A DNA stretch of 64,000 nt. Origin: Actinacidiphila cocklensis (GTDB lineage: Bacteria; Actinomycetota; Actinomycetes; Streptomycetales; Streptomycetaceae). Shown in pieces: positions 33,229 through 38,836 of this stretch. The notes beneath the pieces were generated by a model that made no database searches, was not told the DNA's origin, and saw nothing but the letters and a program-made list of their open reading frames with translations. The stretch covers positions 124,001 to 188,000 of the forward strand of contig NZ_CAJSLV010000114.1 of assembly GCF_907177275.1 (NCBI RefSeq), in the 5' to 3' direction. The position numbers were made by a program, and so were the translations under genes. Numbering within the stretch: position 1 is the first letter of the stretch; every line of letters starts with the position of its first letter.

Positions 33229-33290
33229 GTCACCACTCTGACAGGTGACCGAGTCTGTCGCAAGGAGTCGTCACCCGTCAAATCGGTTCG
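33229..33290. promoter_or_regulatory. Operator pair GTCACC-N9-GGTGAC upstream of the CGNR gene
   Basis: A perfect dyad occupies 33229-33249. A partial copy (GTCACC-N9-GGTTCG) lies at 33270-33290, 41 bp away. On the minus strand the dyad contains CAGAGT, with TTGCGA 17 bp upstream, forming a leaderless promoter for the CGNR gene. Confidence 0.7.
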
Positions 33291-34951
33291 CTTCCCTGCC
33301 TGGCCGCCGTCGCACCGCGCTGACCTGCTGTTTCCGGCGGCGACAGGGTCAGCTCGCGGCCCTGCCAGCGCGCCCGCAGCCAGCGGTCGTGGCTCGCCAG
33401 CACGATCGCTCCCGGGCCGGTGCCGAGCGCGGCCTCCAGCTCGTCGCACAGGGCGGGCGAGAGGTGGTTGGTCGGCTCGTCGAGCAGCAGCAGCTGCGGC
33501 GGGTCCGCCACCAGCAGCGCCAGCGCGAGCCGCCGGCGCTGCCCTACCGACAGCTGCCCGACCCGTTTGCCCAGGTCGGCCTCCTGCAGCAGGCCCAGCG
33601 AGCCCAGCGGTACGGCGTCCGCGCGCTCGGCGCCCAGCGCCAGCTGGTACGTCTCGCGCACCGTACGGTCCGGCTGGTCGGCGACGGTCTCCTGGGCCAG
33701 CAGCCCCACCGTCAGCCCGGGCCGCCGGCGGATCTCGCCCCCCGGGGCGAGCCGTCCTGCGAGCACGGCGAGCAGCGTCGACTTCCCTGCCCCGTTGCCA
33801 CCGGTGACCAGCAGGCGGTCGGCCGTCGCGATCTCAAGGCCGTCCAGCGCCAGCCGGCCGGGCACCCGCACGCCGTGCAGCGACAGCAGCGGGCCGCCAG
33901 CGGCCGCCGGCGCGGCCAGCGCCGTGCCCTCGAACCGCAGCGGCCGGGGCGGCTCTGCGACCCGGGTGCGCTCCAGCTCCGCCAGCCTGCGGGCGGCGTT
34001 GCGCACCCGCCGGGAGACCTGGCCCTGCACCCGGCCCGCTCGATGCCCGTAGCCCATCTTCTCGCTGTCGCGCGGCCCGCGGTCCGGGGCGACCCGGTGC
34101 GCGACCACCTCGGCCGAGCGGCGCAGCGCCGCCAGCTCCTGCTGCTCCTCGGCCCAGCGCCGCTCCCAGCGCTCCCGTTCTGCGCGCTTGCCCGCCAGGT
34201 AGGAGCTGTAGCCGCCGCCGTGCCGCACCGGCCCGTCCACCGCGGGGTCGAGGTCGACCAGGTCCGTGCAGACCGCTTCGAGAAAGGCCCGGTCGTGGCT
34301 GGCCGCCACGACGACACCCGGCAGCCCGCGCACCTGCTCCTCGACGAAGGACGCCGCGTCGTCGTCCAGGTGGTTGGTCGGCTCGTCGAGCAGCAGCGCG
34401 GCGGGCCGCCGGACCAGCAGCGCGGCCAGCGCCAGCCGGCTGCGCTGCCCGCCGGACAGCGAGCCGAGCGCCCGGTCGTGGGTGAACGCGCCCAAACCGA
34501 GCCCGTCGAGCACGAGCGCGGCCCGCCGGTCGGCGTCCCACGCCTCCCGCGCCTGCGCCTGCTCCAGCCGCGTGCCGTAGGAGGCGAGCAGCCCGGCGTG
34601 GTCGGGCGAGTCCTGCGGGGTCGCGGCGAGCCGGTCGGCGAGGAGGTCGAGCTGCGCGAGGTCCTCGCGGGCCTCGCGCAGCGCGTCGTCCAGCACGCCG
34701 GCGATCGTCGCGCGGGCGTCGTAGGGCGTCTCCTGCTGGAGGAAGCCCAGGTCGGGCGGGCGGGTGACGCTGCCCGCGTCGGGTTCGTCGGTCCCGGCGA
34801 GCAGGCGCAGCAGCGTCGACTTGCCGGCGCCGTTCTCCCCGATCAGGCCGATGCGGTGGCCGGGGGAGGCGGTCAGTGAAACGCCGTCGAGGACCCGGCG
34901 GGCGCCGAGGACGCGCACCAGGTCATGGGCGAGCAGGGCAGGCTGGGGCAC
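33278..34951 (-). CDS. ABC-F family ATPase (ribosome protection type)
   Basis: A 557-aa cytosolic protein with two ABC domains and no membrane part. Walker A motifs are GENGAGKST (about 38) and GGNGAGKST (about 385). Signatures are LSGGQRSR and LSVGQRRR; Walker B both read [10 protein letters not shown]. The charged linker between domains (about 235-335) contains the interaction region typical of antibiotic-resistance ABC-F proteins. Such proteins bind the ribosomal E site and displace drugs. GTG start at 34951. It follows a second ABC-F gene by 73 bp on the same strand. Confidence 0.9.
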   Translation of the reverse strand: MPQPALLAHDLVRVLGARRVLDGVSLTASPGHRIGLIGENGAGKSTLLRLLAGTDEPDAGSVTRPPDLGFLQQETPYDARATIAGVLDDALREAREDLAQLDLLADRLAATPQDSPDHAGLLASYGTRLEQAQAREAWDADRRAALVLDGLGLGAFTHDRALGSLSGGQRSRLALAALLVRRPAALLLDEPTNHLDDDAASFVEEQVRGLPGVVVAASHDRAFLEAVCTDLVDLDPAVDGPVRHGGGYSSYLAGKRAERERWERRWAEEQQELAALRRSAEVVAHRVAPDRGPRDSEKMGYGHRAGRVQGQVSRRVRNAARRLAELERTRVAEPPRPLRFEGTALAAPAAAGGPLLSLHGVRVPGRLALDGLEIATADRLLVTGGNGAGKSTLLAVLAGRLAPGGEIRRRPGLTVGLLAQETVADQPDRTVRETYQLALGAERADAVPLGSLGLLQEADLGKRVGQLSVGQRRRLALALLVADPPQLLLLDEPTNHLSPALCDELEAALGTGPGAIVLASHDRWLRARWQGRELTLSPPETAGQRGATAARQGSEPI

Positions 34952-34979
34952 AGGGTTCCACCAGGGGTGATCGGTGTAC

Positions 34980-35009
34980 GGCCCGCGGGGCGCACGCCTC
35001 GCGCGGGCC
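34980..35009. terminator. Hairpin between the two ABC-F genes
   Basis: Arms GGCCCGCG/CGCGGGCC (8 bp) with a 14-nt loop lie between the stop of the upstream ABC-F gene and the start of the downstream one. It may be an intercistronic terminator or attenuator. Confidence 0.4.
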
Positions 35010-35024
35010 TGGCCGGCACACCGG

Positions 35025-38001: not shown

Positions 38002-38456
38002 TCAGCGGCGCAGATGGCGGCTCAGGTCGCCGGCCAGGTGGATGCGGACGGTGCGCTCCACGAAGAGCCGACGCCCGTCGCGGTGGGCGAAGCGGTCGCT
38101 GTAGCGACCCGCGGCCACCGGCTGGAGCGGGAAGTCCGGCAGGGCCTGGAAGACCGTGACGCGGGCGCGCGAGGCGGCCGTTCCCGCCTCCTCGTCCACG
38201 TCCACGACGATGTCGGTCGTGACGTGGTGGGTCCGCGGGGTGCCGTCCTCGTAGCGGATCACGGAGTCCCGCAGCATCGCCGCGACGCCGTCCCCGCCGT
38301 GCACCGGCGCACCGCCGCCGGTGAAGACGGCGTCGTCGGCGAACAGTTCGCCGACCCCGGCGAAGTCCCGGTGTCGACCAGCTCGGCATACCTGGCGATC
38401 AGCCGGGTGACGGCGGTGGTGTGTGCGGGTGTGCCGGCGGAGCGGGGGTGTGACAT
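38002..38456 (-). pseudogene. SnoaL/NTF2-like protein, frameshifted
   Basis: The ATG at 38456 begins MSHPRSAGTPAHTTAVTRLIARYAELVDTG, then leaves frame near 38369. In the next frame GVGELFADDAVFTGGGAPVHGGDGVAAMLRDSVIRYEDG to HLAGDLSRHLRR completes a typical 150-aa SnoaL-like/NTF2 fold. Restoring one base in ACCGG-GACTTC (giving ACC GGC GAC TTC) would repair it. Either a recent one-base deletion or a sequencing error. Such domains bind small hydrophobic ligands. It probably shared an operon with the 66-aa frame upstream. Confidence 0.65.
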
Positions 38457-38524
38457 GTGTGCGTCCAGTACGTCGTGGGCGCGACCGCGGGTGCGCCGCC
38501 GCACCCGGCGGGGAGGGGTGCAGG

Positions 38525-38725
38525 TCAGAGGAAGGCCGAGGCCGCAGGGCCGTAGCCGGTCAGGATCACGCTCTCCGTCCAGGACCACACCAGTGCGGCG
38601 TCCGGCCACTCGCCGGAACCCGCGCGGGCGGCGGTGCGGCCGTGGTCGGAGGGCGCCGTACGGGGCGCGGCGCCCCGCGGGCGCGGCTCGGCGGTGTGCG
38701 CGGACGTGGCGGTTGCGGATGACAT
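38525..38725 (-). CDS. Small hypothetical protein
   Basis: A 66-aa frame with an ATG at 38725 and GGAGACG about 11 bases upstream. The N-terminal 45 residues are Ala/Arg/Pro-rich; the end (EWPDAALVWSWTESVILTGYGPAASAFL) is hydrophobic with three aromatic residues and looks conserved-like. It lies just downstream of the third operator pair (38774-38836). No family is recognised. Confidence 0.4.
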   Translation of the reverse strand: MSSATATSAHTAEPRPRGAAPRTAPSDHGRTAARAGSGEWPDAALVWSWTESVILTGYGPAASAFL

Positions 38726-38773
38726 GGTTCGGCTCGTCTCCGGTCGGAGGTGTCCCGGCGGGGCGACCTTTGC

Positions 38774-38836
38774 GTCACCTGTTCAGGCGGTGACGTCATC
38801 ATGGCAGGCGACTTCGTCACCGGTCAAGATGGTGAT
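38774..38836. promoter_or_regulatory. Operator pair GTCACC-N9-GGTGAC between the 66-aa frame and the HAD gene
   Basis: A perfect copy lies at 38774-38794 and a one-mismatch copy (GTCACC-N9-GGTGAT) at 38816-38836, 42 bp apart. It could serve the minus-strand 66-aa/SnoaL unit, the plus-strand HAD gene, or both. Confidence 0.65.

Follow-up and report, generated by a model that had tools for sequence, protein, structure and literature searches.

The GTCACC-N9-GGTGAC palindromes that recur in pairs in the 64-kb window almost certainly serve as the binding sites of a CGNR zinc-finger regulator from a poorly known family. This regulator apparently represses its own gene together with a group of genes for defence against organic peroxides and electrophiles. 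The window, the whole stretch of DNA analyzed here, corresponds to C113:124001-188000 of a 9.14-Mb Actinacidiphila genome (Streptomycetaceae). In our scan of the window, perfect arms start at 33229, 37893, and 38774, arms with one mismatch start at 37933 and 38816, and a copy with three mismatches starts at 33270; no further copies with zero or one mismatch were found elsewhere in the 64 kb. The sites form pairs at three promoters, with start-to-start distances of 41, 40, and 42 bp, and all six positions and the three spacings agree exactly with those of the original prediction. At the CGNR promoter, the perfect operator 2 (33229..33249) abuts the ATG, and the degenerate operator 1 (33270..33290) is located upstream. 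The promoter of the Bax-inhibitor-1-like (BI-1) gene carries one operator with perfect arms (37893..37913) and one with a single mismatch (37933..37953), 40 bp apart. At the third promoter, which serves the genes of a 66-aa protein and a SnoaL-like protein, operator 2 (38774..38794) lies near the start of transcription, and operator 1 (38816..38836), with one mismatch, covers the -35 box.

The proposed ligand and autorepressor is a CGNR/ABATE protein of 185 aa encoded at 32671..33228 on the minus strand. It matches the ABATE domain PF07336 (E 1.8e-25, 90 bits against a cut-off of 24.4) and the zf-CGNR domain PF11706 (E 4.9e-18). The C-terminal zinc finger possesses the four cysteines and the CGN motif of the family, and C139, C144, C160, and C165, together with G166-N167, are invariant in 40 orthologues. 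Close relatives of the protein come from Actinacidiphila and Streptomyces. A sequence search of the PDB with this protein returned 3h0n as the sole match, and the same structure is at the top of the fold comparison (Foldseek prob 0.94, E 0.027; VIA Z 6.5 over 129 residues, rmsd 4.2), obtained with a model of pLDDT 72.7 and at a level where Z values below 8 are common; the next row, PA2107 (3kaw/3kav), has a Z of about 4. Over the zinc finger, the AlphaFold model has low confidence (pLDDT of about 35-55). Two successive ABC-F type ATPase genes (33278-34951 and 35025-36842, minus strand) adjoin the CGNR gene in the window, and an ABC-F gene is also found beside CGNR in another genome (G008, L014). 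Elsewhere in the window, an unusual 920-aa ORF (25907-28669, minus strand) fuses a caspase domain (Peptidase_C14) to a Cpn60/TCP-1 chaperonin-like domain.

The original prediction had proposed the CGNR protein as the ligand and a comparison of the upstream regions of its orthologues as a check. We took 80 orthologues from a protein search that was blind to the motif, and the palindrome abuts the start codon in 79 of them with at least 10 of the 12 arm bases, against a maximum of 9 for reversed arms. The arms (-21 to -1) mostly carry about 1.6-1.9 bits per base, and most flanking positions about 0.1-0.5. Within the spacer of this operator, a -10-like CARRAT is conserved, and a TTG is conserved at -36 to -34, 17-18 nt further upstream, with the T at -35 present in 99% of the 80 orthologues. 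The corresponding elements in the window are CAGAGT (33240-33235, minus strand), inside operator 2, and a TTGCGA read from the sequence at 33258..33263 (minus strand), 17 nt away. These elements probably constitute a -35/-10 pair whose transcription start would coincide with the start codon, yielding a leaderless CGNR mRNA. The upstream operator is decayed in many orthologues, as it is at 33270 in the window.

Genome-wide pattern searches were controlled by reading the 12-base pattern backwards. With at most one mismatch, the pattern occurs at 147 places, many of them coding, versus 18 for the control; with the internal TTGAC added, eight places remain versus none. Besides the three promoters in the window, about six to eight others in the genome carry paired sites. 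Among neighboring sites 22-120 bp apart, counted as distinct sequences from related loci, the spacing is 39-42 bp in 42 of 60 pairs. The claim of a new operator family in the original prediction is supported. A chance or coding-frame recurrence of Val-Thr and Gly-Asp codons in a GC-rich genome could explain lone matches, many of which, with one mismatch, are indeed coding, and four in one genus (g18) share a single conserved coding sequence. However, the window copies with zero or one mismatch are intergenic and paired at a constant spacing, with promoters embedded in them, so this explanation is rejected for the window sites and retains a negligible probability.

The distribution of the operator follows that of the CGNR gene. 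We surveyed 249 Streptomycetaceae genomes, defining a CGNR orthologue by an E of at most 1e-40 and an operator by at most one mismatch. The orthologue is patchy, with 66 genomes carrying it; the operator is present in 62 of these 66 versus 20 of the 183 CGNR-negative genomes, and at least two operators are present in 43 of 66 versus 2 of 183. Because the genomes are related, the Fisher p-values for these contrasts overstate independence; nevertheless, in the genus of the window, the operator is found in 20 of 20 CGNR-positive and 0 of 15 CGNR-negative genomes, and this split and the patchy occurrence of CGNR indicate that kinship is not the whole cause. Both CGNR-negative genomes with at least two sites (G142 and G157) encode a 42%-identical CGNR protein; an operator pair is found at the start of its gene, one operator lying at the mapped start or no more than 10 bp away. 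Among the 20 CGNR-negative genomes with an operator, several have a diverged CGNR gene, and the same coding false positive recurs in four; conversely, the strict operator is absent from 4 of the 66 CGNR-positive genomes. Among the 46 CGNR-positive genomes listed, 41 have an operator farther than 500 bp from the start of CGNR, and in 27 at least one operator lies within about 15 kb of this start.

The same survey bears on whether another regulator binds the palindromes, with CGNR merely one of its targets. An HxlR gene (39561-40052) is situated near the 38774/38816 pair, another lies near a pair in genome G003, and Ohr genes, which are found among the targets, are classically under the control of OhrR, a MarR-type protein. 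However, the link between HxlR and the operator is weak (35 of 69 versus 47 of 180 genomes) and is gone once CGNR is fixed: at least two sites are present in 19 of 29 versus 24 of 37 CGNR-positive genomes (p 1.0), and the p-value is 0.15 in the CGNR-negative genomes. HxlR is rejected as the ligand on these grounds. The Streptomyces OhrR box is the AT-rich ACAATTNAATTGT (PMC6034001), unlike the GTCACC-N9-GGTGAC found at the promoters here, and an OhrR site is rejected on this difference. Furthermore, diverged CGNR genes retain the palindrome next to their own start, its outer bases varying by subfamily, as is expected for self-binding. Binding by another regulator is therefore improbable, and the orthologue sites, the co-occurrence across the 249 genomes, and the palindromes of the paralogues all favor CGNR as the ligand.

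The palindromes of these paralogues share the form NNNACC-N9-GGTNNN, in which the outer bases change with the CGNR subfamily. The GTCACC operator accompanies the finger DRSRGxRRxWCGMxxCGN, GTAACC-N9-GGTTAC accompanies fingers such as VDTSRPGRRRWCSMERCGN, and GCAACC-N9-GGTTCC accompanies FFDTSQSRTRKWCDMNTCGN. For 112 distinct zinc-finger sequences, many of them from close orthologues, the general form exactly abuts an in-frame start codon. Among 95 non-redundant genes, a perfect upstream match is found for 24 at a spacer of nine and for at most one at any other spacer of 5-14, in either half of the set. On the Sphingomonas morindae plasmid p1, a lipocalin-like gene is separated from a CGNR gene by GTAACC/GAAACC-N9-GGTTWC pairs (L408:1269-1446). 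Both domains of this CGNR protein were confirmed; the four sites are arranged as two pairs, spaced at 38 and 41 bp, and the last of these sites abuts the CGNR ATG. In the set of 95, the upstream ACC-N9-GGT site is absent from the CGNR genes of Rhizobium, Pantoea, Deinococcus, several actinobacterial groups, and others; a rule for all CGNR proteins is rejected, since many deeper members are without the site. It is likely that a large CGNR clade, found in Actinomycetota and on one or more alphaproteobacterial plasmids, uses the ACC-N9-GGT core at the start codon with outer triplets (GTC, GTA, GAA, GSA, and others) set by finger residues, and that the member described here runs an organic-peroxide and electrophile regulon. 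Such a clade would represent a bacterial zinc finger, distinct from the helix-turn-helix proteins, with a readable specificity code.

The anatomy of the target promoters indicates how the sites may function. Across the genome, target sites away from the CGNR gene fit GTCACC-NNY-TTGAC-N-GGTGAC, so that the -35 box forms part of operator 1. At a distance of 17-18 nt downstream of this box there is a hexamer resembling a -10 (CATGAT, CATAAT, and variants), and a few bases separate it from operator 2. Except at the CGNR gene, the -10 is thus flanked by the two operators, of which the second covers the predicted transcription start. In the window, the promoter TTGACC-18-CATGAT (38798..38827, minus strand) is located between and inside the 38774/38816 operators, and an independent promoter scan of 32600-39600 found it as the only sigma-70-like promoter, with 0.1 expected. 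The palindrome of the original prediction stands, but its N9 spacer is constrained and holds a -35 or -10 element. Arms of GTCACC and GGTGAC could also give RNA stem-loops or attenuators with 6-bp stems and a 9-nt loop. However, operator 1 is upstream of the predicted transcription start, the CGNR site spans the -10 and is consequently not transcribed, and the 39-42 bp pair spacing and the TTGAC in the spacer are features of promoters; an RNA hairpin is rejected on its position and is left with hardly any probability.

The operators overlap the -35, the -10, or the predicted start of transcription, as the sites of promoter-occluding repressors do. A CGNR protein that binds these sites as an activator, or as both activator and repressor according to a ligand, would accommodate the targets that have a single operator, over the -35, and ligand-switched regulators can act both ways. 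Against this, a protein bound at such places normally blocks the polymerase, and the TTGAC -35 boxes lie close to the consensus and require no assistance. Activation is accordingly given a small chance, and an autoregulated CGNR repressor with paired operators is very probably the best explanation.

The targets of this putative repressor were assigned by promoter direction. In the window, the 37893/37933 pair is just upstream of the start (37832) of the gene of a Bax-inhibitor-1-like membrane protein, a probable target (36972..37832, minus strand; PF12811, E 3.6e-75). Behind the 38774/38816 pair, the first gene encodes the 66-aa protein (38525..38725, minus strand), and the SnoaL_4-like gene (38002..38457, minus strand; PF13577, E 5.9e-14) is probably the second of this unit. 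A 79-aa relative of the 66-aa protein is located behind an operator pair in another genome (L010:1587-1826); both proteins end in WxWxE...GYGPxxxxFL, and neither has a Pfam or NCBIfam match. The original prediction named CGNR, Bax-inhibitor-1, and the 66-aa/SnoaL or HAD genes as those served, and all are retained except HAD: the 38774/38816 promoter faces the minus strand, and its direction, pointing to the 66-aa/SnoaL genes, probably eliminates the HAD gene as a target in the window. HAD hydrolase genes are found behind operator pairs in G142 (L187, divergent from the CGNR gene) and G232 (L191), so HAD can be a target there.

The regulon extends beyond the genes listed in the original prediction, which missed Ohr and the other wider targets as well as the embedded promoter. 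In the genome of the window, operator pairs or strong sites lie in front of predicted targets that include an Ohr peroxiredoxin gene (C1:184458, TIGR03561), a VOC/glyoxalase-like gene, named from reading its sequence and without a family match (C1:306677), a secreted alpha/beta hydrolase (C1:309419), an SRPBCC protein (C113:60447), a 64-aa protein (C102:45304), and divergent molybdopterin oxidoreductase and disulphide oxidoreductase genes (C1:302237); C1:58275 and C12:59652 are weaker candidates. In relatives, the commonest target is the conserved 64-aa protein (ARFGSLPERIRFEDM...YSCLALDLGL; for example, L043:3394-3588, plus strand), with 21 loci, followed by SRPBCC (7), Ohr (6), alpha/beta hydrolases (6), VOC (3), and HAD (2), in addition to CGNR itself. 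The 64-aa protein has no Pfam or NCBIfam match.

The sequence itself shows how the operators are built, how far they are conserved, their co-occurrence with CGNR, and, from promoter direction, their targets; we infer the further steps of direct binding, dimer contacts, repression, a leaderless start, and a signal. A CGNR dimer would grip the GTCACC and GGTGAC arms with its two zinc fingers; the 15-bp distance between the arms would fit a dimer, and for the family member Jann_2411 a dimeric state and a zinc finger likely to bind DNA have been reported (PMC2954205). At target promoters, one dimer would sit over the -35 box, TTGAC being part of its site, and a second, 39-42 bp downstream (about four helical turns, hence on the same face), would cover the transcription start, so that RNA polymerase would be excluded. 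In the CGNR promoter, the downstream operator would cover the -10 and touch the start codon of the probably leaderless mRNA, producing negative autoregulation. A signal would then free the promoter from the repressor. The Ohr, glyoxalase-like, SRPBCC, and alpha/beta-hydrolase targets suggest an organic peroxide or a reactive electrophile as the most likely one, a tentative assignment and the weakest step of the scheme. Cys9, the only cysteine outside the zinc site, is invariant in 40 close orthologues; it is rejected as a universal sensor, because a serine replaces it in the group of 42% identity, which retains the operator, and any sensing by Cys9 would be lineage-specific.

The ABATE/CGNR family, through Jann_2411 (PDB 3h0n), was proposed to comprise dimeric, stress-induced, DNA-binding regulators (PMC2954205). 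Similar to Jann_2411, the window protein combines an ABATE sensor-like domain with a treble-clef CGNR zinc finger; in contrast to that report, whose text is without the words operator and promoter, an operator, a promoter, and a regulon are proposed here. We found no operator or regulon for this family in the open-access literature, which the search covered. With the operator, the target list, and the natural specificity variants, the whole family becomes testable by one EMSA and one RNA-seq experiment; the proposed system would add a zinc-finger class to the bacterial repressors and would tie uncharacterised small proteins to a stress response. Bacterial repressors with paired operators use two operators on one helix face that bracket a promoter, together with autoregulation. 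Compared with these in general, the ligand proposed here is a zinc-finger rather than a helix-turn-helix protein, and its site includes the -35. Redox-sensing HxlR regulators use palindromic operators upstream of detoxification genes, but the operator here does not track HxlR when CGNR is controlled. As in the Streptomyces OhrR-ohr system, an Ohr peroxiredoxin gene would be under an autoregulated repressor positioned over the promoter. However, OhrR belongs to the MarR family and has the box ACAATTNAATTGT, whereas here Ohr falls within a larger CGNR regulon.
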